Assembly: GCA_027859095.1 (NCBI GenBank) | Contig: JAQIBN010000167.1 | Location: forward strand, 1 to 36,547 | Direction of reading: 5' to 3' | DNA length: 36,547 nt | Origin: Spirochaetia bacterium | Lineage (GTDB): Bacteria > Spirochaetota > Spirochaetia > B11-G9 | In this document: positions 2,126 to 26,732 of the stretch, one piece after another | Numbering within the stretch: the first letter of the stretch is position 1 | Layout of the letters: every line of letters begins with the position of its first letter | Notes under the pieces: generated by a model | The model's database searches: none | Told to the model about the DNA's origin: nothing | What the model saw: the letters and a program-made list of their open reading frames with translations, nothing else | Made by a program: the position numbers and the translations under genes

Positions 2126-3016
2126 TTATAACTTCTCCTTTTGATAGATGAATTTGATAAAAAATATTCCTATAATTACACCAATAATCAAAAGAACATT
2201 AGATAGAGCAGCAGCATAACCTATCCTTAGCTGATTCATTCCAACTTCATAAATTCTTAAATTTGCAACTGTAGTGGATGTACCAGGTCCACCCCCTGTA
2301 ATAGCCCAGATAATATCAAATACTTTCAGGGCGTCCAGAGATCTGATAAGAAGTGCAACTAATAAGGTTGGTCTTAAAAGAGGAAGTGTAATTTTGAAAA
2401 ATATGGGAACCTCTCCAGCTCCATCAATTCTTGCAGCTTCATATGGTTCTGTTGGAAGACTCTTAAGACCGGCAAGGATAATTATTACCATAAGGGGAGT
2501 CCATTCCCAAATATCAACAACAACAATAGACCCAAGAGCCAATGACCTCTCTACAATTAATCCTCTGCCTATATCTATACCAAATTTTCTTAAATAATAA
2601 GTTATCATTCCCAAATCGGGATGATACAGGGATTTCCATACCAAACCGGCAACCAAAGGAGTAAACACTGTCGGGATTAGAATGAAAGTCCTTATAATTT
2701 CCATTACTCGATTTTCATGATTTAATAGAAATGCTATAAGCATTCCAAAAACAACTTCTACCGATACAGCAGAAAATACAAATATTAAAGTAGTAACTAA
2801 GGAATTTAAAAACTGAGTATCAGCGAGCATTTCTCTGTAATTCGATACACCGTTATAAATAGGGGTGCGCCCAAGTTTCAGTTCAAAAAAACCAATAAAA
2901 ATATTGTATATAACCGGATAAAGGAAAAAAACAACCATATATACTGTGATGGGTACAAGAAACCACATCAGAGTACTTTTCTTTTTATCGATCGATAATA
3001 TTCCGCTTATAGTCAT
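2126..3016 (-). CDS. ABC sugar transporter permease, MalF-type (first permease)
   Basis: Membrane permease of 296 residues with an N-terminal cytoplasmic stretch (MTISGILSIDKKKS) and about six hydrophobic helices. The EAA loop reads EAARIDGAGEVPIFFKITLP at about residues 192-211, the classic ATPase contact site. It forms the heterodimeric channel with the following permease. AGGGGAG precedes the ATG. It is separated from the binding-protein gene by a short gap with a hairpin terminator, so it is probably expressed at a lower level than the binding protein. Confidence 0.9.
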   Translation of the reverse strand: MTISGILSIDKKKSTLMWFLVPITVYMVVFFLYPVIYNIFIGFFELKLGRTPIYNGVSNYREMLADTQFLNSLVTTLIFVFSAVSVEVVFGMLIAFLLNHENRVMEIIRTFILIPTVFTPLVAGLVWKSLYHPDLGMITYYLRKFGIDIGRGLIVERSLALGSIVVVDIWEWTPLMVIIILAGLKSLPTEPYEAARIDGAGEVPIFFKITLPLLRPTLLVALLIRSLDALKVFDIIWAITGGGPGTSTTVANLRIYEVGMNQLRIGYAAALSNVLLIIGVIIGIFFIKFIYQKEKL

Positions 3017-3033
3017 TCAATCTCCCCTAAAAA

Positions 3034-3056
3034 GGCCGGATGAAAAACATCCGGCC
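3034..3056 (-). terminator. hairpin terminator/attenuator between binding-protein and permease genes
   Basis: A perfect 9-bp GC-rich stem (GGCCGGATG 3034-3042 with CATCCGGCC 3048-3056) with a 5-nt loop is followed, in the direction of transcription (minus), by TTTTT. It lies 41 nt after the binding-protein stop and just before the ribosome site of the first permease. This is the arrangement of a partial intra-operon terminator that raises the ratio of binding protein to permeases. Confidence 0.75.
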
Positions 3057-3096
3057 ACAAAATATGCTACATTCAGCTTATAATTACAGGTAAACC

Positions 3097-4443
3097 TTAT
3101 TTCATAAAGGCTTTAATATCTGCAGCTGCAAGATCAAGAGCTTCTTTAACTCCAAGTTCATGTGTAATAGCCTGATTAATTCTTAATCCAAGAACGTCCT
3201 GTATTTGACTGTATTCTGGAACTCTTGGACGGTAATCGCCATCTCCATTCTGAAAAACTGTAAGAACATCAGCTAACCATGGCATTTCTGAATTAAGTTC
3301 AGGATCAGTAAGTGTAGAAAGCCTTATTGGAGCACCATTATTTCTTGTCCAGTCTTTTTGAGCTTGTTTACTGGTTACATATTTAATAAATTCCCAGGAA
3401 ATTTCAGCGTTTTCTTCTGAAGAATCTGCATTAATAGAAACTCCCCAGCCACCAACACCATAACCGGCATCTGCACCGGAAACTTTAGGAGGAACAGCCA
3501 TACCTGTTTTTCCTGCTACCATCGAGATTGATTCATCCTCATATCCAGCTCTTGCAATACTCCAGGATGACTGTGATACTGTCTGACCTGTTCTGTATGA
3601 AGTTTCCCTGCTGTCCCACCAATAACCGATGGCACCGGCAGGAGCCCATTTATCAAACATTTCTACAAAAAATTCCAATGATTCAACACATTCTGCACTA
3701 TTTACAGTTACCTCTCCTGCAGAGTTGAATATCTGACCACCGAAGCCTCTCATATATTCCATCCAGTCCTGAGCAACAGCCGGGCCTCTTGCACCACAGG
3801 CTACAAGACCATACATATTTTCATCTGGTCGTGTAAAAAAAGCGGAGATATCACTAAGTTGCTTAAAAGTTTCAGCAGGAGCCAGATCATATCCATACTT
3901 TGCTTTAAATGCAGCTTTTTCACCTGAATCTTCAAATAAATCTTTTCGATAGATCATACTATTTGCATATGCAGATAAAGGATAACCAATCTGTTTACCA
4001 TTCCAGTCACCCATTACCCAGAGGATTGGCAAAATATCATCATAATCAATTTCTGCCTTATCTCTGTTTATCCATGCAGTCAGGTCCTTTGTCCAGCCTT
4101 CCTGTTCGAACTGGCCGGTCCATACAATATCCATTGTTGCAAGATCATATTCAGCAGATCCAGTTGCAAAATCCTGAGTTATTTTCTGCATCAATTCAAC
4201 ATAACCAAGAATATCGATACGCACATCCGCACCGGTTTCCATCATAAACTCTTTGCTGAAAACTTTTAGTTGATCAGCAAACTGTTCCGCTGCTACTGCA
4301 AAGTGGATGACAGCACCTTCATAAGGCAGGGCCTTCTCCATAACAGGAGCTTCAGCTGCCTCTTCTGTTTTCCCACCTGCAAAAGCCATCACACAAATAA
4401 GAAGCATGATTGAAACGAATAACAAACCTTTACTCTTTCTCAT
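3097..4443 (-). CDS. extracellular sugar-type solute-binding protein of the ABC importer
   Basis: Periplasmic binding protein of 448 residues (family 1 solute-binding, MalE-like). The N-terminus is a signal peptide: MRKSKG, a hydrophobic core, then AFAGGKTEEAAEAP. There is no lipobox cysteine; this AFAGG-type junction is common in spirochaete binding proteins. The mature part has the family features: a YDLATMDIVWTGQFEQEG ligand-hinge region, GKQIGYPL, and a MYGL...WMEYMRGFGG segment. It is likely anchored or free in the periplasm and feeds the two permeases encoded just downstream. GGAGAGG precedes the ATG. A TATTAT -10-like box lies upstream (4457-4462), so it may also have its own weak promoter. 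The ligand is unknown. Confidence 0.88.
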   Translation of the reverse strand: MRKSKGLLFVSIMLLICVMAFAGGKTEEAAEAPVMEKALPYEGAVIHFAVAAEQFADQLKVFSKEFMMETGADVRIDILGYVELMQKITQDFATGSAEYDLATMDIVWTGQFEQEGWTKDLTAWINRDKAEIDYDDILPILWVMGDWNGKQIGYPLSAYANSMIYRKDLFEDSGEKAAFKAKYGYDLAPAETFKQLSDISAFFTRPDENMYGLVACGARGPAVAQDWMEYMRGFGGQIFNSAGEVTVNSAECVESLEFFVEMFDKWAPAGAIGYWWDSRETSYRTGQTVSQSSWSIARAGYEDESISMVAGKTGMAVPPKVSGADAGYGVGGWGVSINADSSEENAEISWEFIKYVTSKQAQKDWTRNNGAPIRLSTLTDPELNSEMPWLADVLTVFQNGDGDYRPRVPEYSQIQDVLGLRINQAITHELGVKEALDLAAADIKAFMK

Positions 4444-7754: not shown

Positions 7755-8477
7755 TCATCGCTTTAATCTAACTATATATTTATAACGGTCAGCCCTGTAG
7801 ACACCCTCTGCATATTCAATACGTTTATTCTCACTATCAAAGGTTGTATATTTAATAATCAAAATGGGATCACCAGGTGATATATTAAGAAATGTTGAAT
7901 CTTCATTTCCGGCTATACCAGCTTCAATCTCTTTTTCAGAACCCGATATAATAATGCCATATTTCTTTTCCAGAAGATTAAATATTGAACCACTAAAATC
8001 GTCTAATTCTGTTACTCCAGTAATGGTGCATATATAATTTTCAAATAGAGCTATTGGCTCACCATCGATCTTCCTAAGGCGCTTTGAATAAATTATTTCA
8101 TCACCTTTTTCAATATTAAGATGTTCAGCCAGTCTTTCAGTTCCAGGAATTCTTACTACATCAATAACCTCAGTTGATATTTTAAAGCCCTGCTTTTCCA
8201 TTTTCTCAGTAAAACTCTGAAGTTTTGTATTTCCGTTTTCCTGCATCCTGGGAAAGGCTACCATAGTACCCCGACCCTGCTTTTTAATAAGAAGGTCATC
8301 AAAAACAAGTCCGTTTACTGCATTTCGAACAGTTATTCTGGAAACACTGTAAAGTTCCTGAAGTTCTTTCTCAGATGGAATTAAATCTCCAGGTTTATAT
8401 TCGCCATCAAGAATTTTTCTTCTTAGTATTTCCTGTAACTGAAAATAAAGAGGAACAGGACTGCCAGTATCCAACAT
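7755..8477 (-). CDS. GntR-family transcriptional regulator with UTRA ligand domain
   Basis: Regulator of 240 residues. The N-terminal winged helix (about residues 8-75) has PLYFQLQEILRRKILDGEYK and the recognition helix IPSEKELQELYSVSRITVRN typical of the HutC subfamily. It is followed by a UTRA effector domain ending in ...YRADRYKYIVRLKR. HutC-type regulators usually sense small sugars, sugar phosphates or histidine-pathway compounds. It is the first gene of the kinase-aldolase-dehydrogenase run, so autoregulation is likely. Its promoter carries a candidate operator also found at the promoter of the upstream catabolic operon. CAGGAG lies upstream of the ATG. Confidence 0.9.
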   Translation of the reverse strand: MLDTGSPVPLYFQLQEILRRKILDGEYKPGDLIPSEKELQELYSVSRITVRNAVNGLVFDDLLIKKQGRGTMVAFPRMQENGNTKLQSFTEKMEKQGFKISTEVIDVVRIPGTERLAEHLNIEKGDEIIYSKRLRKIDGEPIALFENYICTITGVTELDDFSGSIFNLLEKKYGIIISGSEKEIEAGIAGNEDSTFLNISPGDPILIIKYTTFDSENKRIEYAEGVYRADRYKYIVRLKR

Positions 8478-13537: not shown

Positions 13538-14539
13538 TCAGATATTAGCCATAGTAGCGGCCATAATTGCCTTCATAATATGTAGTCTGTTTCCGGCCTC
13601 ATCAAAAACAACAGATTGAGGACCATCTACGACCTCACTGGTTACTTCCACATCTCTGTCATAAGGCATGCAGTGCATATAGATGGATTCAGGTTTTGCA
13701 ATATTCATTTTTCTTTGATCTACAACCCAGTCCATATTTCCATTTTCCCGGTATGAATCTATTATCTTGATACCTTCAGCTTCATCTTCTGTGTGCATAA
13801 TGGGTCCCCAGCCCTTGGCATATACAACATCTGCACCTTCACATGCTGCAGCCATGTCATTCACAACCTCAAATTTACCACCAGTCAGTTCAGCATTCTT
13901 CTTTGCAATCTCCATAACTTCCGGTTTTAAAGAAAACTCCGGAGGATGAGCAAGAGTTACATCCATTCCAAACCTAGGCATAAGCTGTATAAGTGACTGA
14001 GCCATAGAGAGGGGTCTAATATAATTTGGGGCAGAAGTCCATGAAACTACAATTTTTTTACCCTTTATGTCATTCTGGAATCTATCCTGAATAGTCATAA
14101 GGTCTGCAAGTACCTGGGTTGGGTGATAATCCTCACACTGCATGTTAACAACCGGTAATTTTGACCATTTAGCCATTTCACGCATGTATGCATGACCTGT
14201 GCCGAATGTTTTTCTTATGCCAATACCTTCTCCATATCTTTCCAGAACCTTTATAGTATCTTTTGGAGTTTCGCCATGATCTATCTGAGTTGCCTTGGGA
14301 GTTAAAAAATGAGCATGACCACCTAGCTGATGAATTCCAGCTTCAAATGCATTTCTTGTTCGTGTTGATTCTTCAAAAAACAGCATAAAAAATGTTTTTG
14401 CACGTAAAACATCATCATGGAATATCCCTAATTCCCTTTCCTCTTTAAATCTGAAGGCCACTTTTAATAACTGATCAATTTCCTGCACAGTCCAGTCCTG
14501 GGTATTGAGCAGATGTTTTCCTCTTAAACTTGTGTACAT
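13538..14539 (-). CDS. YgeW-like carbamoyltransferase (short form)
   Basis: Aspartate/ornithine carbamoyltransferase-superfamily protein of 333 residues. The carbamoyl-phosphate loop is ESTRTRNAF. The other active-site elements are QIDHGETPKDT, QCEDYHPTQVLADL, and HCMPYDRDVEV in place of the usual HCLP. The middle part (PLSMAQ, FGMDVTLAHPPE, ADVVYAKGWGP) follows E. coli YgeW, a knotted carbamoyltransferase of the purine-degradation cluster. It is shorter than E. coli YgeW (about 396 residues); the missing pieces seem to be before DYHPTQ and in the loop before DWVVD. In catabolism such enzymes recover carbamoyl phosphate from a carbamoyl-amine, but no carbamate kinase is present here. GGGGAGG precedes the ATG. 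Confidence 0.8.
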   Translation of the reverse strand: MYTSLRGKHLLNTQDWTVQEIDQLLKVAFRFKEERELGIFHDDVLRAKTFFMLFFEESTRTRNAFEAGIHQLGGHAHFLTPKATQIDHGETPKDTIKVLERYGEGIGIRKTFGTGHAYMREMAKWSKLPVVNMQCEDYHPTQVLADLMTIQDRFQNDIKGKKIVVSWTSAPNYIRPLSMAQSLIQLMPRFGMDVTLAHPPEFSLKPEVMEIAKKNAELTGGKFEVVNDMAAACEGADVVYAKGWGPIMHTEDEAEGIKIIDSYRENGNMDWVVDQRKMNIAKPESIYMHCMPYDRDVEVTSEVVDGPQSVVFDEAGNRLHIMKAIMAATMANI

Positions 14540-14553
14540 TTTTTGTACCTCCC

Positions 14554-15030
14554 CTATTTCTTCATATTATCAGCAGCCATATGAACTGCATTGATGATTT
14601 GTTTATATCCTGTACACCTGCAAAGGTTTCCAGAAATTGCTTCTTTAATCTCCTGGTCTGTAGGATCCTGATTCTCATTTAATAAATGATATGAACTGAT
14701 TACCATGCCAGGGGTACAGAAACCACATTGAACTGCTCCCTTCTCAAGAAAAGCTTCCTGAACAGGATGCATACTTCCATCAGAATTCTCAACACCCTCA
14801 ATTGTTAAAATATCTGCTCCCTGAGCCTGGGCTGCAAGAACCATACATGAGTTTACTTTTTTACCATTCATAATAATTGTACAGGCACCGCACTCACCTA
14901 TACCACAACCCTCTTTTACCCCTGTAAACCCGAACTTATCCCTAAGAACATCCAGCAACCTGGCATAGGGTTCAATTTCTGTTTCAACATTTTTTTTATT
15001 AACCGTCATAACAAGTTTTATCTTATTCAT
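14554..15030 (-). CDS. molybdenum hydroxylase [2Fe-2S] subunit (XdhC/CoxS-like)
   Basis: Iron-sulfur subunit of 158 residues with two [2Fe-2S] domains. The plant-ferredoxin-like cluster uses Cys42, Cys47, Cys50 and Cys62. The C-terminal helical domain uses Cys102 and Cys105 (CGFC) and Cys137 and Cys139 (CRC). It passes electrons from the Mo site to the FAD subunit. Its start overlaps the FAD-subunit gene by 8 nt with GGGGTG upstream, so the three subunits are co-translated. Confidence 0.93.
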   Translation of the reverse strand: MNKIKLVMTVNKKNVETEIEPYARLLDVLRDKFGFTGVKEGCGIGECGACTIIMNGKKVNSCMVLAAQAQGADILTIEGVENSDGSMHPVQEAFLEKGAVQCGFCTPGMVISSYHLLNENQDPTDQEIKEAISGNLCRCTGYKQIINAVHMAADNMKK

Positions 15031-15901
15031 TTTCTTTCACCCCTGTAGCCTCATTCAAAGCACGTTTTACAAGACTGGCAATTACTGGCTCCTTGTATGG
15101 TGTAGACCATCTTTTCCCTGTTATTCCAATCATTTTCTCTGATACCTTTTTACCAATTGCTTCGTGAAGATCATATGAAGGAATTTTTCCAAGAAGCATA
15201 TTTTCTGCCTCAAAAATTCTTTTGGATACTGGAGTTGCTGAACCGGGAACAATTCTTACATCTGTAACAACTCCGTCTTTATCGGATTCAACATAAACAG
15301 CTACATTCATCCTTGCTATTGCTAATGTTTTTCTTCTTCCCAGCTTAACAAATGAAAAACCTGCCTCTGGCTTTAATTTTTTAAATTGTATAGATTTTAT
15401 TACTTCATCAGGTTGAATTAATGTTCTGCCGGCTCCCTCAATAAAATCACTCAAAAGAATATTTCTTGTTCCTTTAGAACTGGCAAGAACCAGTTTACTG
15501 TCCATGGCAACCAGGGGAGGAACGGAATCGGATGCCGGGGAAGCTGTACCGATATTGCCCCCAACAGTCCCTGTATTTCTAATCTGAGGAGATCCCACTG
15601 TTTTGCAGGCTTCAATAAAAAATGGAGCATATTTTTCCAATACAGGATTTTCTATTATCTGTGAAAAGGTAGCACCGGATCCTATACTTATTGAACCTTG
15701 ATCCAGTTTAATTATTTTCAATTCAGTTAATTTAGATATATCAAGAACTAATTCAACATCTTTTAACTTTTTATCTTCCGCCCTGAATTCTACCATCAAG
15801 TCTGTTCCACCGGCAAAAAGCCTGGCTTTTTCCCGATACATATCAAGAAGAGCAAGACACTCTTCTATAGAATCAGGTCTCTTATAATCAAATCTAATCA
15901 T
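15023..15901 (-). CDS. molybdenum hydroxylase FAD-binding subunit
   Basis: FAD subunit of 292 residues of the xanthine dehydrogenase/CO dehydrogenase medium-subunit family. FAD motifs are LFAGGTDLMVEFR (about residues 29-41) and TVGGNIGTASPASDS (about 117-131). The C-terminal domain follows from about residue 180. Its ATG overlaps the stop of the Mo subunit as ATGA. Xanthine dehydrogenase-type complexes with this subunit reduce NAD+ or ferredoxin. Confidence 0.93.
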   Translation of the reverse strand: MIRFDYKRPDSIEECLALLDMYREKARLFAGGTDLMVEFRAEDKKLKDVELVLDISKLTELKIIKLDQGSISIGSGATFSQIIENPVLEKYAPFFIEACKTVGSPQIRNTGTVGGNIGTASPASDSVPPLVAMDSKLVLASSKGTRNILLSDFIEGAGRTLIQPDEVIKSIQFKKLKPEAGFSFVKLGRRKTLAIARMNVAVYVESDKDGVVTDVRIVPGSATPVSKRIFEAENMLLGKIPSYDLHEAIGKKVSEKMIGITGKRWSTPYKEPVIASLVKRALNEATGVKENE

Positions 15902-18252
15902 TTTATCATCCCCCCCTTACTCAAACTTTTTCCCAGAAGGGTTCTTTCCAGATTACAAGGAAGCTCTCTTACAGGTACACCAGTTGCATTCGCTACAGCC
16001 GCGGCAATTGCTGCTCCAACAGCTTCAGTTGCAGGCTCACCAAGAGATTTTGCACCGTAGGTACCAGCACTATCATCACATTCAAAAATCACAGCTTCCA
16101 TTTCGGGGACATCAATTGATGTCGGGAAAATATAGGAATCAAAATTCTTAGACTCCAACTGTCCTTTGTTTACTGGAACCTCTTCTGTGACACCAAAACC
16201 CTGGCCCATAGCGATTCCACCATAGATTTGACCTTCCACAGTATCCGGGTTTACACAGGTACCAACATCATGTCCCGAAGAAACCTTTAGAACATCAACA
16301 AAGCCAGTTTCCATATCCACTTCAACTTCAGCCACAACTACTCCATAGGAATAAGTGGGAAAAGCATCTCCCTGACCAGTATGATGATCAATCCCAAGGT
16401 CTCCTGGCTCGCTCCAGTTATAGACAGCCATAGCTTTACCTGTCCATAATCTTGTGTTACATACATCAGCCAGACTTACCTTATTTTTGCCATCACTGCC
16501 AATTATGTAAAACTCATTATTATCTATATCCACTTTATCAGGATCTGTTTTAAGTAACATAGCTGCTGTTTCCCTAAGTAAAGTCCCTAAATCTATAGAA
16601 GCCTTCCTCATAGACTGAGCTCCCATGACTGTACCTCGTGAGGCAACTGTCATACCGGAATCCGGAATGGAATGTGTATCTACACCAACAAAATTGATAA
16701 TATCCGTTGTGCATCCAATTCCTTCTGCTGCTATCTGTGTATAGGCTGTTTTTAATCCCTGTCCATTTTCAGCAAGACCTGTATTAATTAGAATGGTTCC
16801 GTCTTCTATTGCTGTTACTAATGAACCACCTGCATCTGGTGTTTCAGCACCATACCCACTGCCTCTGTAACAGGAGACCAGGGCAATGCCCTTTCTTTTC
16901 TCTTTAGATTTATGAGTATTAGAATATTCTTCTTTTTTCCGATAATACTCTGTTGTATTTACCATATGATCAATCATTTCCAGAGTTATTGTTTCTGCAG
17001 TTAGTTTTTGACTTGTAGCTGTTAAATCACCCTGCTTTAGAATATTTTTCCTGCGTAAGTCAATTTCATCAATACCCATTTCTTTTGCAATTTCATTTAA
17101 AAACTGCTCTTGAGCAAAGATAATCTGAGGGGAAGAATATCCTCTCATGGCACCTGAGTGAATATTATTGGTAAACACCCCATAAGTATCAGTTTTGATA
17201 TTAGGAATATTGTATACTCCTGCAGAATGAATAGCAGCCCTGCAGTTTAGATATTGGGTTTGATTATTATATGCCCCTGCATTAGCAATTTGAGTACCTT
17301 CCCATGCGATAATTTTTCCATCTTTAGTTAATCCAGCCTTATACTTAAAATTAAAGGGATGTCTTTTAGCTGATTCCATAAATGATTCTTCTCTTGTTGC
17401 AACCATCTTTACGGGTCTGTCGGTAGCCATTACTAAAAGAGCCGCTCTTCCAACCATTAAACCAACTAACTCCTCCTTACCACCAAAGGAGCCTCCTAAC
17501 ATTTTCTGAACTACTCTGCATTTATTAAAAGGAGCCTGAATCGCATCAGCTAAATATCGTCTCGTAAAAAAAGGATTTTGAGCTGAAGCATAAGCCGTTA
17601 CAATACCTGCATCCGGGTCTTTCATAACTACACAGGCTTCTCTTTCTATATAAGAATGCTCAACAAAGGGGGTTTTATATTCTCTTTCCAAAATAAAATC
17701 TGCTTCTGAAAATCCTTTTTCTATATCACCCTTTCTTATAGGATAATATGAATCATAAAATATATTACCCTTTTTATCTTTATCAGGGAGACCATCTTTT
17801 AGACCAACTCCTTTTTCTCTTATTTGAACAGCATTTTTTTCTAATGCACCTTCAATAGTGTAGACTCCATCAAGTTCTTCATATTCTACCTCAATAGCCT
17901 TCAGGGCATCTTCAACCAGGTCAGTTGTTTCTGCAGCAACAATAGCAACAGTTTCTCCAACAAATCTAACTGTACCATCAGAAAGGTATGGATAGTCTGC
18001 CCAACTCTGAGTTTTTGGTACATCTTTGGCAGTCAATACAGCATAGACACCTGGAATTGCCTTTGCTTTTGAGGTATCAATTTCCACTATTATTGCATAG
18101 GCATATTTACAGCGAAGAGATCCACCAAAAATCATACCAGGGACTTTAACATCAGCAGCGTAAAGAGCCCTTCCGGTAATCTTATCTGCAGAATCAACCC
18201 TGTTTAGACGTTTATTTAAATGTCTGTAATTTTTTGTTCCCATTAATGGCAT
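15898..18252 (-). CDS. molybdenum hydroxylase molybdopterin-binding subunit (xanthine dehydrogenase-type)
   Basis: Large catalytic subunit of 784 residues, complete for the family. Domain order is the a/b hammerhead (about residues 20-125), then the Mo-pterin domain. Key motifs are MLGGSFGGKEEL, GAMRGYSSPQIIF, GLAENGQGLKTAYTQIAAE, and the catalytic glutamate in GAKSLGEPATEAVGAA near the C-terminus. It binds the molybdopterin-cytosine-dinucleotide cofactor and hydroxylates N-heterocycles such as purines; the precise substrate is not shown by the sequence. GGAGG lies 7 nt upstream of the ATG. With the FAD and Fe-S genes it makes a full three-subunit enzyme. Confidence 0.92.
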   Translation of the reverse strand: MPLMGTKNYRHLNKRLNRVDSADKITGRALYAADVKVPGMIFGGSLRCKYAYAIIVEIDTSKAKAIPGVYAVLTAKDVPKTQSWADYPYLSDGTVRFVGETVAIVAAETTDLVEDALKAIEVEYEELDGVYTIEGALEKNAVQIREKGVGLKDGLPDKDKKGNIFYDSYYPIRKGDIEKGFSEADFILEREYKTPFVEHSYIEREACVVMKDPDAGIVTAYASAQNPFFTRRYLADAIQAPFNKCRVVQKMLGGSFGGKEELVGLMVGRAALLVMATDRPVKMVATREESFMESAKRHPFNFKYKAGLTKDGKIIAWEGTQIANAGAYNNQTQYLNCRAAIHSAGVYNIPNIKTDTYGVFTNNIHSGAMRGYSSPQIIFAQEQFLNEIAKEMGIDEIDLRRKNILKQGDLTATSQKLTAETITLEMIDHMVNTTEYYRKKEEYSNTHKSKEKRKGIALVSCYRGSGYGAETPDAGGSLVTAIEDGTILINTGLAENGQGLKTAYTQIAAEGIGCTTDIINFVGVDTHSIPDSGMTVASRGTVMGAQSMRKASIDLGTLLRETAAMLLKTDPDKVDIDNNEFYIIGSDGKNKVSLADVCNTRLWTGKAMAVYNWSEPGDLGIDHHTGQGDAFPTYSYGVVVAEVEVDMETGFVDVLKVSSGHDVGTCVNPDTVEGQIYGGIAMGQGFGVTEEVPVNKGQLESKNFDSYIFPTSIDVPEMEAVIFECDDSAGTYGAKSLGEPATEAVGAAIAAAVANATGVPVRELPCNLERTLLGKSLSKGGMIK

Positions 18253-18315
18253 AATTCAACCTCCAATACAACACACAATAGAATTCCTCAATTTTATGTA
18301 TCTCATTTTATCTCT

Positions 18316-19398
18316 TTATAAATAATCAGGTCTTAAAGAGCCGTTCGGACATACAGAAAAACATAATCCACAATATCTGCAAAGATCTGTATCAAGTGAC
18401 ATATTTTTACTGCTGAGAGTCCTTGCCTCATATGCACAGGCCTTAACACAGGCCATACACTCAGTACAGCTTTCCGGGTTGTAAATAAAATCAAATTTCT
18501 TATTATTTGCAGCAGAATTTAGATATTTATGTGAGAGACCAGATAAGTCAGCAGAATTATTATAACCTAGTTCGGTTATTAATTTTTCAAGCTTTACATT
18601 TAGTTTACTAATATATTCCACACCCTTAACAATTGGAGCAGTACAAATACCAACTGCCGAAGCTCCGGCCATTAACATCTCAACTGCATCTTCGGCCTTT
18701 GTTACTCCACCCAGGCCTATGACTGGTTTATCTGTGGCAGACGAAATCTCCGCCACATAACGAAGTGTTATTGGTTTAATGGAACTGCCAGTAAGCCATC
18801 CAAAACCATTACCCCCACCAATTAGAGGTTTACCTGTTTTTATATCAATTCTTAAAACAGGTCCAATGGAATCAATTGCAGTAATGCCGTCAGCTCCTGC
18901 TTCAAGAGCTTCAAGTGCTATTCCTACAGCATCTACCCAATTGGGACTTATTTTCACAAGCACCGGTTTTTTCGTAAGGAGCTTCGCTTTCTTCAGCATA
19001 GGCAGAATAGTATCTCTTTCATAGGAAACAAGTTCAATAATATCTGCTCCTGCCTTTGAAACTTTTCCAACCCAGTTTTTTGCTTCCAGGGGAGTATGGC
19101 CAATACTTGCAATAACAACAACACCTGCTTTTTTAGCCTCAGGGATCTCTTTCGCTACCCACTCTGAACCTGGAATATCCGACCATTCCTCAGCATTTAT
19201 CATACTGTTTTTTCCAGACACAGCCATATGTGGAAAAGGATTAACAGCTGGATTATCCCTTATAGTTTTTGTAACTACAGCTCCAGCACCTGCATTGTGA
19301 GCACGGATAAGACCCTTTGCTCCATAACTCAAGGGACCTGATCCAAGGATAAAAGGACTTTGGAGTTTTATCCCGAACAGATAAGTTTCGATGCTCAT
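18316..19398 (-). CDS. PreA-like dihydropyrimidine dehydrogenase/dihydroorotate dehydrogenase-family protein with C-terminal 2[4Fe-4S] ferredoxin domain
   Basis: FMN TIM-barrel oxidoreductase of 360 residues. The barrel covers about residues 1-285, with SPFILGSGPLSYGAKGL at the start, KPVLVKISPNW, and GLGGVTKAEDAVEMLMAGA near the phosphate site. The C-terminal ferredoxin domain has two clusters: Cys311, Cys314, Cys317, Cys321 and Cys340, Cys343, Cys346, Cys350. This matches the PreA subunit of bacterial dihydropyrimidine dehydrogenase, but no PreT partner is encoded next to it. It probably reduces or oxidises a C=C or C=N bond of a heterocycle. Its ATG overlaps the upstream amidohydrolase stop (ATGA) with GGAGG upstream. 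Confidence 0.87.
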   Translation of the reverse strand: MSIETYLFGIKLQSPFILGSGPLSYGAKGLIRAHNAGAGAVVTKTIRDNPAVNPFPHMAVSGKNSMINAEEWSDIPGSEWVAKEIPEAKKAGVVVIASIGHTPLEAKNWVGKVSKAGADIIELVSYERDTILPMLKKAKLLTKKPVLVKISPNWVDAVGIALEALEAGADGITAIDSIGPVLRIDIKTGKPLIGGGNGFGWLTGSSIKPITLRYVAEISSATDKPVIGLGGVTKAEDAVEMLMAGASAVGICTAPIVKGVEYISKLNVKLEKLITELGYNNSADLSGLSHKYLNSAANNKKFDFIYNPESCTECMACVKACAYEARTLSSKNMSLDTDLCRYCGLCFSVCPNGSLRPDYL

Positions 19399-20711
19399 TT
19401 ATCATCCTCCCATAATCGTGCTGCCTGTACTTTCACAGCCTTATATTCGTCTTTCATATTGGTATCAACAAGAGATCCATTGGCTTTCAACTGCCTTCCA
19501 TTAACAAAAACATTCATAACATTTTCAGGATTACAGTAAAGAACAAGCTGAGTAAAAATATTTTCTTTATTTAATGGTGTAGGAAGCTCTGGCTTAATAG
19601 TAATTATATCTGCAAAACTACCCACTTCCAGTTTTCCTGCCTGCTCCATTCTCATAGCTGAAGCACCATGGCTTGTGGCCATATTAAAAACAGTCTCTGC
19701 AGGCATAATTTCAGGATTCTCAAGGTTTGCTTTGTGTAACAAAAAAGCGCCTCTCATTACCTCAAAAAAATTGTTAATATATCCATCTGTTCCAAGGCCT
19801 ACCTTTAGCCCCTTTTCCAGCATCTCCGGTACAGGAGCAATACCACCGCCAACTTCACAGTTGCTTAGAGGGAGATGAGCCATATTTACTCCATGTTTAA
19901 ACAGAGTATCCATCTCTCCTTCAGTCAGTTTAACTCCCTGAGCAGCCAGAATCGGTTCTTCAAAAAAATCAAGTTCATCATACAATTCCACTGGAAGCAT
20001 ATTATAATTTTTTTGGCATAATTCCTGTTCGTATTTGCTTTCGGAAAGGTGCATCTGTATTCCAGTGCCAGTCTCTCTGGAAGCATCCATTGCTTTACGA
20101 ATAAATTCTTTGGAACAGGTAAATGTTGTATGAATACAGATCATTCCTGAAATTAGAGGGTGGTCCTTGTATTTATTATAAAAGCTTTTGTTCTCTTCAA
20201 TAGCGAGCAATCCATTATCAGTATTTACTCTTTCGGAAGCTTCAAAAGAGAGAATAGCCTTTATTCCTACATCTTTGAGAGCTTCTGCTTCTGCTTCCAG
20301 AGCACCCGGAATAGCCATAGGGGCTTCAAGAATATCACAAAGGGCAGTAACGCCGCTGTTAATCAGCTCATAGGCCATCGCTCTTGCTGTTACGGCTATC
20401 ATTTTATGGTCAAGGCGGTCTTCAACTTTCGGCCACCAGAAATCTTCGAGAAAGTTTTTAAAATCTTCTATATCAGCAGGAACAGATATTCCATGGGATA
20501 AAACACCATATAGATGCATATGCGCATTTATAAAACCTGGGGAGATGATCTGATCCCTGCAGTCCAATACTTCGAAATCAGGATATTTTTCCAGGAGGAA
20601 TTCATTCGAATTGACTTCAGAAATAAGATCACCCTCTATGGCCAGACCATAATTCTCCATGACTACAGCGTTATCAGCCAATAAAAATTTACCTAAAACC
20701 AGTTTTCCCAT
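19395..20711 (-). CDS. SsnA-like amidohydrolase
   Basis: Metal-dependent hydrolase of 438 residues, first gene of the catabolic operon. The HxH motif is His64 and His66 in GFINAHMHLYG. Later metal and substrate motifs are IQMHLSESKYE, MAHLPLSNCEVGGGIAPVPE and GLGTDGYINNFFE. Overall order and length agree with the putative aminohydrolase SsnA of selenium-linked purine clusters and with chlorohydrolase/cytosine-deaminase relatives. It probably deaminates or opens a ring intermediate. AAAGG precedes the ATG, and a clear promoter lies upstream. Confidence 0.82.
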   Translation of the reverse strand: MGKLVLGKFLLADNAVVMENYGLAIEGDLISEVNSNEFLLEKYPDFEVLDCRDQIISPGFINAHMHLYGVLSHGISVPADIEDFKNFLEDFWWPKVEDRLDHKMIAVTARAMAYELINSGVTALCDILEAPMAIPGALEAEAEALKDVGIKAILSFEASERVNTDNGLLAIEENKSFYNKYKDHPLISGMICIHTTFTCSKEFIRKAMDASRETGTGIQMHLSESKYEQELCQKNYNMLPVELYDELDFFEEPILAAQGVKLTEGEMDTLFKHGVNMAHLPLSNCEVGGGIAPVPEMLEKGLKVGLGTDGYINNFFEVMRGAFLLHKANLENPEIMPAETVFNMATSHGASAMRMEQAGKLEVGSFADIITIKPELPTPLNKENIFTQLVLYCNPENVMNVFVNGRQLKANGSLVDTNMKDEYKAVKVQAARLWEDDK

Positions 20712-23817: not shown

Positions 23818-23949
23818 TGTACCCTCATCCTAAATCATATGACTGTAAATATACAATTAGTCGATATTTATAATCAATGCAAACAGATTTTTTTACAAAA
23901 CAACTAAATAGTATGATACAGTCAATTTCCATAAATTATTTTATAATTC

Positions 23950-24077
23950 AGGCTGGTCGCAAACAAGTTTGCTGCTCGGCCTATGAGTCGTACCGGAAGA
24001 GCGAAGCGATGAGGAACGATCTCAGCATCCTAAGGCTGGTCGCAAACAAGTTTGCTGCTCGCCTATGCATCCTAAGG
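23950..24077. repeat. GC-rich repeat pair upstream of the fused Mo hydroxylase gene
   Basis: A 35-36-nt unit beginning AGGCTGGTCGCAAACAAG and ending CTGCTC(G)GCCTATG occurs at 23950-23985 and again at 24033-24067, differing by one extra G. Each copy contains GCAAACAAGTTTGC and can fold into a hairpin with AGGC/GCCT at its base. A second motif, GCATCCTAAGG, flanks the second copy at 24025-24035 and 24067-24077. The final copy supplies part of the AAGGAG ribosome site (24074-24079) of the next gene. The element is far richer in GC than its surroundings. A TATAAT box just before it (23942-23947) would place both copies in the leader RNA. Confidence 0.75.
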
Positions 24078-24085
24078 AGTTTACA

Positions 24086-26732
24086 ATGACTACAGATATT
24101 ACAACTGCTTTTATAGTTAACGGTTCTAAAATAGTAAAAAAAAATAACTAGTGAAGAAACTCTCCAAGATTTTCTACGATATAATTTAAAGCTTACAGGT
24201 GTAAAAAAAGGTTGCAGTAATGAAGACTGTGGCTCTTGTACCGTTCTTATAAATGGTAAACCTGTTAAATCATGTAGTTTAAAAATGGATGATCCTATTC
24301 TTAAAGGTGCTGAAATAGTTACAATTGAAGGCCTTTCAGATAATGAAGATAATCTTCATCCAGTACAGGAAGCATTTGTAAATGCAGGAGCACTTCAGTG
24401 CGGATACTGTACTCCGGGAATGATAATGACGAGCACTAGCTTACTTATGGAAAATCCTAATCCTACAAGTGAAGAAATAAGAGAATATATTGGTCCAAAA
24501 AATATCTGTAGGTGTACAGGATATCAAAAAATAATTGAAGCTGTAGAAGATGCAGGAAGAGTATTAAGAGGTGAAGAAAGTCTTCTTGCCAATCTTCCTG
24601 ATGATGCTTCCTTAAGAAAAAAAGATGCCAGACCTAAAGTTATGGGTAAAGTAAAATATGCTGATGATATTAAAGGTTCAAACAAAATCGGTATGGTTGA
24701 GCAAGATCAGCCAGGACTTGTAGGGATCGGCGAGAGAATTAGATCTGTTTCAGATCCTTTAGCTGCAGTTTTTGCCGAAACCAGAGAGGGAGCCGAAGAA
24801 GCTCTGGCTCTATTAAGTGCAGAATATAAAGAACTTCCGGGTATTTTCAGTGTAAAAGAGGCACTGGCTAAAAATGCACCTCTTATACATGAACATAAAA
24901 AAGATAATATTCTTTACAGCGGTTTCCTGGAAAGAGGAAAACCAGAAGAAGCATTAAAATTATCTGATATTGTAGTAAATGGTAATTTTACGACATCAAG
25001 AGCAGCTCATGGTTATACAGAAGTTGAATCAGGATATGCTGTACCGGATGGTAAGGGAGGGGTAGAGATTTACTATCCAACCCAGGCCGTTTTCGATGAC
25101 CGCAGACAGGTAGCCGGAGCACTTGGTATTAAGGAAAATAAAGTAAGAGTTATTCAGCTTCCGACAGGTGGTGCCTTCGGAGGTAAAGAGGATGTCCTTT
25201 TCCAGCACATTCTTGCAGCTGCTGCCCTCAAGTTCAATAAAACAGTAAAAATTACCCTTGAAAGAGAAGACTCTCTCCAGGTTGTTCAAAAGAAACATGG
25301 CATAGATTTCAATGCATCACTGGGAGTGGATAAAACAGGTCAGATCAGGGTTCTTAATGTGGATATAGAGACAGATACAGGAGCCTATGCTTCTCTCGGA
25401 CACGATATAATTGAAAATGCCATGACTTTTGCAGGTGGACCATATTATATCCCTGAATTAAGAATAAATGGAAAAGCTGTTTATACAAATAATGTTATGG
25501 GTGGAGCAATGCGTGGATTTGGTGCTAACCAGGCTAACTTTATGATAGAATCCCTTATAAATATGGCAGCAGAGAAGCTTCAGATGGATACAATCGATAT
25601 CAGGTTGATAAATGCTCTAAAACAGGGACTTCCAACTGTTGCCGATCATGTACTTGAACCTGGGTTACCGGGAATAGTCGAAGCCCTTTTAGAAGCAAAA
25701 AAAGCAAGGGAGGTTTTTCCACTTCCTCAAAACACAAAGGGGAAAAAATATGGAATTGGAGTTGCATGCGGAGTCAAGAATATTGGGTTTGGTCATGGAT
25801 TTCCTGAAAGTGCAGGTGCAATCCTGGAACTTTCGAATGAGGGGAAATGTGAATTGATGGTTACACATCATGAATTCGGTCAGGGAGCTGCTATAGGTCA
25901 GGCGAAACTGGTATCAGAAGTGCTTGGAATTCCTGTAGATGAAATATCTGTAAAACTTCCAGATACAGGTAAAACTCCTTTTACTACTGCAACAACTGCT
26001 TCCATGCAGACATTTATGACAGGGAATGCAACCCTGGGAGCTGCAAGAAAACTCCTTTCTGACATTCTGATAATTGCTGCAAAAAAGCTGGGAAATTCAA
26101 ATCCAGCCGCTCTTAAATTAAAAGGGGATTCGATAATTGACACAACTACTGATAAAGGAATCAAACTGTCTGAGCTTGGAGCTCCTTTCAGATCAGAATT
26201 CAGGGCATTTCCTCCCCAGACTGCCACATTTCCGGAAAAAATCACACAGAAAGACTATAAATCTCCCGAATTCGAAAGCAGGAGAACCCATTGGGCCTAT
26301 GCCTACGGTGTACAGCTTGCCCTTGTTGAGGTTGACGAGGAAAGTGGAAAGGTAATAACAAAAAAAATCGTTACTGTCAGTGATCTAGGAAAGGTTCTCA
26401 ACAAAAGAGCCGTTGAAGGTCAGCAGGAGGGTGGAGTTGTTATGGGTGTGGGCTATGCTCTAACAGAAAAATATTCCTCAAATAATGGAATGCCTGTAAC
26501 TAAGACACAGGGAGAACTGGGATTACCCAAAGCCGATGAAGCACCTGAAATAGAAAACAGAGTTGTAGAAGTACCACATCCATGGGGACCTCTGGGAGTT
26601 AAAGGATTAGCAGAAGCACCTTCTCTAGCCACTGCTCCGGCAATTACAAATGCAAGTTTCGATGCCACAGGGGTAAGGATATTTAATTTACCGGTTAATA
26701 AGGAATTATTAAAGAAAGAGAATGCTGGGTAG
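24086..26732 (+). pseudogene. fused [2Fe-2S]-Mo xanthine dehydrogenase-family gene with a frameshift in an A9 run
   Basis: ATG at 24086 has AAGGAG 6 nt upstream and starts MTTDITTAFIVNGSKIV, but the frame closes at a TAG (24149-24151) just after nine A's (24136-24144). With eight A's the frame would run on through GVKKGCSNEDCGSC, CGYCTPGM and CRCTGY (both [2Fe-2S] domains) into the Mo-pterin domain to 26732, about 880 residues in all. The longest uninterrupted part starts at 24285. Mo-domain motifs remain: TGGAFGGKEDV, GAMRGFGANQ, and the glutamate in GVKGLAEAP. The fused order resembles the selenium-dependent xanthine dehydrogenase group (XdhD-like). About 37 residues of the hammerhead region are missing compared with the intact Mo subunit at 15898-18252. 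It may be inactive, or rescued by slippage on the A run. Confidence 0.8.

Follow-up and report, generated by a model that had tools for sequence, protein, structure and literature searches.

A run of nine A's near the start of a gene for a fused [2Fe-2S]-molybdopterin hydroxylase in a Spirochaetia bacterium, very probably uncultured, is followed by an early stop, and the question raised by this locus is whether the break is a very recent lesion, an error of the sequence, or a switch operated by slippage. The gene lies in the window, by which we mean the whole stretch of 36,547 nucleotides that was analysed; it corresponds to contig C196 of the G000 assembly (314 contigs, 4.2 Mb, 89.9% complete). 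A sequence-only reading of the window had put forward all three explanations. The comparison with five other genomes of the same genus (G001 to G005), presented below, suggests that we are most likely dealing with an ordinary gene broken very recently (or misassembled), rather than with a genetic switch.

The frame break at the A9 run

The features of the locus are collected in Table 1. The sequence-only reading had credited the ATG with an excellent ribosome-binding site and had described the frame past the run as open, and both statements were confirmed. The TAG, which had been placed right after the nine A's, is actually located two codons past them. An A/T run of at least nine in a coding frame, ahead of a premature stop two codons on, is the arrangement that slippage would call for; set against the intact orthologues, the same site is a disabling lesion of the kind expected in a young pseudogene, as the frame ends after 21 codons. 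This is the single A9/T9 run of the window, in comparison to 4.4 expected on average from shuffles. The earliest ATG, GTG or TTG in the frame entered at 24144 is the ATG at 24285, and a product begun there would be without the first [2Fe-2S] motif.

Table 1. Features of the hydroxylase locus, in window coordinates.
Feature	Position	Strand	Basis and remarks
Promoter-like block TATGATACAGTC	23912-23923	+	alignment, sequence; promoter role putative
Two identical 29-nt copies (23950-23978, 24033-24061) flanking a 24-nt dispersed repeat (24002-24025)	23950-24061	+	
Ribosome-binding site AAGGAG	24074-24079	+	read from sequence; 6 nt 5' of ATG 24086-24088
ATG-started frame of 21 codons, ended by TAG 24149-24151, TGA next	24086-24151	+	sequence
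A9 run, frameshift site	24136-24144	+	sequence, alignment to relatives
Rest of the fused [2Fe-2S]-molybdopterin hydroxylase frame, 862 codons and stop	24144-26732	+	open frame, profile matches
Longest ORF with ATG/GTG/TTG start in the hydroxylase frame, 815 aa	24285-26732	+	ORF list
Junction of the 129-nt in-frame deletion, at GCTGATGATATT	24660-24675, break between 24674 and 24675	+	alignment, sequence

An orthologue, or pieces of one, was found in all five other same-genus genomes searched. The comparison of the run in close relatives, which had been proposed as a check, gave seven A's at the aligned place in G001, G002 and G003, five in G004 and eight in G005, and all frames were unbroken there. 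Since 5/5 same-genus orthologues read the A-run in one frame, the break at A9 is not a matter of chance. According to the alignment, the base next to the run in the window differs from that in four of the five relatives, which lengthens the run. The frameshift itself was common to none of the five orthologues, and thus the site does not appear as one kept in related lineages.

A second lesion in the hydroxylase frame

The remainder of the reading frame had been taken as intact and as encoding the full Mo domain. Neither statement survived the comparison with the relatives. The window copy lacks 43 residues, all of which are found in G001, G002, G004 and G005, as well as in the more distant G042. 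The missing codons correspond to the first third of the a/b-hammerhead domain, and the hammerhead profile PF01315 matched the window copy from profile position 37 only, with 28.5 bits versus a cut-off of 31.3; the matches in G004 and G005 covered positions 1-110 (66.6 bits) and 2-110 (71.6 bits), respectively. In G004, the 11-bp direct repeat GCTGATGATAT is located at either end of the stretch that is missing in the window, where one copy is retained. The 129-nt loss looks as deletions between short direct repeats usually do, and this is the mechanism we infer for it. The sequence-only reading overlooked this gap because it is in frame and visible only against relatives. With the A9 frameshift and the 43-codon gap, the window copy carries more than one lesion, as would suit a young pseudogene, and it is not the otherwise undamaged gene that rescue by slippage would require. 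The AlphaFold models built on five-row alignments (mean pLDDT of 52 for the window protein and 42 for the G004 orthologue) were too poor to judge the 43-residue gap.

The G003 orthologue (G003:C322; L038 about 2636-4294, minus strand) lacks 171, 393 and 540 nt, each in frame and each at imperfect 15-16-nt repeats; the three deletions remove Fe-S ligands and much of the Mo domain. Its four remaining pieces are 93-96% identical to G001, and it represents either another young broken copy or a misassembly. A second copy is represented in the window's own genome by a 5'-truncated remnant on the minus strand (G000:C243; L040 about 7771-8445). It shares 73% identity with residues 637-858 of the window protein, and no further part of the gene was found in the 1.5 kb of contig upstream of it. 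Selection for in-frame deletions was considered and rejected. All four gaps (one in the window, three in G003) are in frame, which is unremarkable because 50-80% of the near-repeats within the G001, G004 and G005 genes are in phase, as estimated with two loose settings, the perfect 11-mers being too few to say.

Domain composition and family of the hydroxylase

When the window copy was read from 24144, its matches to Fer2_2, MoCoBD_1 and MoCoBD_2 exceeded the Pfam cut-offs. The N-terminal Fer2 domain, with the residues before the run left out, scored 20.2 bits versus a cut-off of 21 (25.5 in G004 and 29.6 in G005), and its cysteine spacing is complete by eye. In G004 and G005, all five domains (Fer2, Fer2_2, hammerhead, MoCoBD_1 and MoCoBD_2) were above their cut-offs. 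The intact relatives belong to the fused [2Fe-2S]-molybdopterin hydroxylases.

The top-scoring curated model was TIGR03311, the Se-dependent xanthine dehydrogenase, yet the window copy (606.5 bits) and three intact relatives (G004 657.2, G001 685.3 and G005 667.0 bits) were all below its cut-off of 830.45. NF045668, the molybdopterin-dependent aldehyde oxidoreductase, scored 521.1 bits in the window versus a cut-off of 1100, with 551.6, 568.9 and 574.3 bits in G004, G001 and G005, respectively. The nearest solved structure for the G004 protein was 1sij, annotated as 'Aldehyde oxidoreductase' (E 2e-111). The 1sij/1vlb protein (907 aa) is the aldehyde oxidoreductase of Desulfovibrio gigas. Like that enzyme, the hydroxylase studied here combines the [2Fe-2S] and Mo parts in one chain; unlike it, the intact relatives reach about half of the NF045668 cut-off. 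Because G001, G004 and G005 are below both NCBIfam cut-offs, the substrate is not assignable from the family models.

Selection on the gene and its apparent mosaic structure

At the positions on which four relatives are unanimous, the private changes of the window copy comprise 29 synonymous and two amino-acid ones, counted outside the first 20 codons, the gapped columns and G003. The corresponding N:S values in the relatives are about 21:44 (G004), 9:45 (G001), 5:24 (G005) and 4:20 (G002), and the synonymous distances exceed 1 for most pairs. A rough hand calculation, which assumes about three amino-acid changes per synonymous one without constraint and an upper limit of about six for the two seen, puts the unconstrained share of the window branch below roughly 7%. 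Relaxed selection after inactivation, as a young pseudogene may show, was thus not apparent (N 2 : S 29). Two amino-acid versus 29 synonymous private changes therefore suggest that the hydroxylase gene went out of use only very recently, if at all. The ratio excludes long decay and not a just-broken gene; an old pseudogene was rejected, as two amino-acid changes are too few for it. Together with the unbroken frames in 5/5 relatives, these counts support the earlier suggestion of a very recent lesion. The mosaic nature of the gene, described next, may lower the private-change counts.

Across the N-terminal 177 residues, the window shares 89-90% identity with G005/G002, 81% with G001 and 72% with G004. 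In the 271 columns following the gap, it is closest to G001 (88.6%), and in the last part (410 positions) it is 90% identical to G004 and 79-82% to G001, G002, G003 and G005. The C-terminal trees joining the window to G005/G002 or to G001 were rejected (AU p 0.0002 and 0.001, respectively). The G005/G002 tree was the best for the N-terminal part, the alternatives having p values of 0.044 and 0.075 (two with G004) and 0.055 (with G001). Based on these trees, the mosaic seems clear from the C-terminal side, with weak N-terminal support. Recombination among the relatives, or the joining of their reads, would explain it. We also considered, and rejected, that the contig combines two organisms with the seam located exactly at the gap: the gene order is as in the relatives, and the affinity shifts again well after the gap.

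Contig ends were found within or at the hydroxylase gene in three of the five same-genus genomes. In terms of window-protein residues, the G002 gene is split at about 255/282 (C32 and C327; L037 and L036), and G005:C159 (L035) ends at 850; the G001 contig (C321; L003) begins 3 nt before the ATG. This pattern of ends would suit samples that contained several similar copies of the gene.

A9 runs across the genome

The genome contains 155 overlapping A9 places. Our survey comprised 62 runs, the window's own and 61 in 60 fetched stretches, which were taken in list order from the listed part of the 155 places (contigs C4 to C117, with C37:3779 skipped). The runs were classified mechanically, using a codon score for which 19 genes of the window served as training set, and this procedure may miss breaks. 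A continuing coding-like frame was assigned to 32/62 runs (one of them also flagged as a break), and 30/62 lacked it (three flagged), leaving 27 runs in neither class. The flagged runs amounted to 4/62, that is, the window's run and three others (3/61 without the window's).

One of these three, in L150, marks the point where a hypC-like gene ends normally, ahead of a hypD-like one, the names being taken from the translations. The second, in L143 (898-907; G000:C47:13297-13306), is an A10 closing a 125-aa ORF directly before a phage tape-measure gene. This ORF had no PHROG match; the A10 is possibly a tail-chaperone frameshift site, its location being typical of the phage G/GT tail-chaperone frameshift. 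The third, in L147 (around 901-909; G000:C49:2930-2938), concerns a T9 on the coding strand at which the frame possibly changes; it is located among consecutive frames that are tyrosine-recombinase-like, as named from the translation only.

Among the 61 other A9+ runs sampled, none of the three flagged was a convincing break of a non-mobile gene. A genome-wide use of A9 breaks was therefore rejected, the three other flagged runs being a gene end, a pre-tape-measure site and recombinase-like frames. In this sample, long A-runs in G000 seem seldom to break ordinary genes, which argues against a general run-length error, as well as against A9 as a common switch. The homopolymer error proposed earlier may apply to this one site, and is unlikely as a general fault (32/61 sampled runs in frame, three flagged).

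Explanations for the broken gene

In the best reading, to which we give slightly better than even chances, the window contains a newly dead or polymorphic allele broken by two slippage events. It would be a very young broken allele of the genus-typical fused [2Fe-2S]/molybdopterin hydroxylase gene. One lesion would be a single A added to the A-run, presumably via replication slippage, with translation halting after 21 codons; the other, visible by comparison with the relatives, is the 129-nt in-frame deletion, probably formed between the short direct repeats, with the loss of part of the hammerhead. Without frame rescue, the good ribosome-binding site would yield just a 21-residue peptide. Strong purifying selection would have acted on the gene until, or almost until, the present, and the allele may be dead population-wide or in some strains alone. 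We arrive at a young broken allele because the frame is broken here and unbroken in 5/5 relatives, and because of the 43-codon second lesion; we favour it because related copies break too (the three gaps in G003 and the C243 remnant). Three observations count against it. The absence of relaxed selection fits a gene that is intact in reality as well as one that is just broken, both lesions leave the downstream frame open, and the private-change counts may be lowered by the mosaic nature of the gene.

An assembly or consensus fault ranks second and, in our estimation, is somewhat unlikely. The gene would be intact in the organism, and one or both of the lesions (the added A and the 129-nt gap) would stem from the joining of reads of several related strains or species. 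The fragmented host assembly (314 contigs) and the three further gaps at short repeats in G003 are in line with such a fault, and the gene seems hard to assemble, as it coincides with contig ends in G001, G002 and G005. Its apparent mosaicism is a further point: the best tree of the N-terminal part is rejected for the C-terminal part (AU p 0.0002), which groups with G004. However, the gap does not mark a clean change of affinity, since the next 271 columns are closest to G001, and the mosaic is clear one-sidedly, the N-terminal trees joining the window to G004 being barely rejected (p 0.044) or not (p 0.075). The surrounding gene order, moreover, is that of the relatives, and among the other sampled A9+ runs 32/61 are in a continuing frame, with one false alarm and two mobile-element-like cases making up the three flagged. 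The missing decay fits an intact gene equally well and, given the contigs of G001, G002 and G005 that end at the gene, the assembly fault stays a serious explanation.

Transcriptional slippage on the A9, in which a share of the mRNA would have eight (or 11) A's and would encode a shortened working enzyme, appears improbable. According to PMC5009743, A9 is of a length at which bacterial RNA polymerase can slip, and as many as six extra bases have been reported. The purifying selection seen here (N 2 : S 29) would agree with such a rescue, as would the lack of rate increase that PMC3017870 gives for four Blochmannia genes with such frameshifts. The proposal of a slippage switch found no positive support: the frameshift is present in 0/5 relatives, and the product of the restored frame would still be without the 43 hammerhead residues. 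In addition, the frame needs one A lost or two gained, and in the reporter tests of PMC6260861 the RNA polymerase of E. coli did not slip towards deletion on poly(A); these tests concern runs of around seven and eight, and A9 may not be covered. The same paper cites in vitro work in which deletions predominated when the E. coli enzyme transcribed an A11 tract, as well as a Thermus sequence that gave both −1 and +1 shifts in E. coli. For this reason, the direction of slippage alone is not decisive.

A close published parallel to such a site is Citrobacter rodentium tssM1, for which PMC4256274 describes transcriptional frameshifting on an A11, with the slippage shown on transcripts. Like tssM1, the hydroxylase gene has an A-run shortly ahead of a premature stop and a downstream frame that is kept; unlike it, the A9 needs −1 or +2, and the break is near the 5' end. 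No case of slippage in the fused [2Fe-2S]/Mo hydroxylase family was present among the literature matches listed.

Frameshifts in poly(A) tracts of Buchnera and Blochmannia genes were reportedly described by Tamas in 2008 and Wernegreen in 2010. The hydroxylase gene resembles these cases in its single-base indel in a long A-run, a frame that is otherwise open and no rate acceleration. It differs from them in that 0/5 relatives share the break, a second 43-codon lesion is present, and the genome, with 4.2 Mb, is not that of a reduced endosymbiont. Should slippage prove to be the right reading, a large-genome spirochaete would join the organisms with poly(A) rescue. The locus is a clean example of an apparent lone frameshift accompanied by an in-frame deletion that is invisible from one genome, and a warning to compare relatives before single homopolymer breaks in draft assemblies are annotated as slippage switches.

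A narrower proposal, that the A9 is a tolerated or used slippage site which throttles a hydroxylase shortened in its hammerhead domain, with a minor in-frame mRNA pool and selection keeping the frame clean, we regard as very doubtful. The least credible explanation is that the product arises because the ribosome shifts by +1 on the run, or because translation begins again at an internal start codon. The stretch is A-rich and slippery and the ATG at 24285 is the first start in frame, but the site is not conserved in the relatives, a protein begun at 24285 would be without the first [2Fe-2S] motif, and sequence inspection revealed no ribosome-binding site like that at 24074 upstream of it.

Genomic context of the locus

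The hydroxylase gene is located between a divergent glgX and a convergent sufU. The divergent glgX neighbour is also found in G002, G003 and G005, and sufS is located downstream of the gene in G002, where one more gene of that cluster was also identified; because these neighbours match, the present site is, as far as gene order can tell, the native place of the gene. The sequence TATGATATAGTC is present upstream of the orthologue in G002, G003, G004 and G005, the G001 contig being without upstream DNA. Between the promoter-like block and the ribosome-binding site of the window copy lies the repeat array listed in Table 1. The dispersed repeat, CGAAGCGATGAGGAACGATCTCAG, occurs in 20 copies in G000, the window's included (up to three mismatches allowed), and was present in 6/6 genomes of the genus and in 0/3 others searched.

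The window also encodes, at 13538-20711, a separate xanthine-dehydrogenase-like enzyme with Fe-S, FAD and Mo subunits. It is part of a cluster that includes a carbamoyltransferase, an SsnA-like amidohydrolase and a PreA/PyrD-like protein. The Mo subunit and the SsnA-like and PreA-like proteins were below the NCBIfam cut-offs, and the cluster perhaps serves purine or pyrimidine breakdown.
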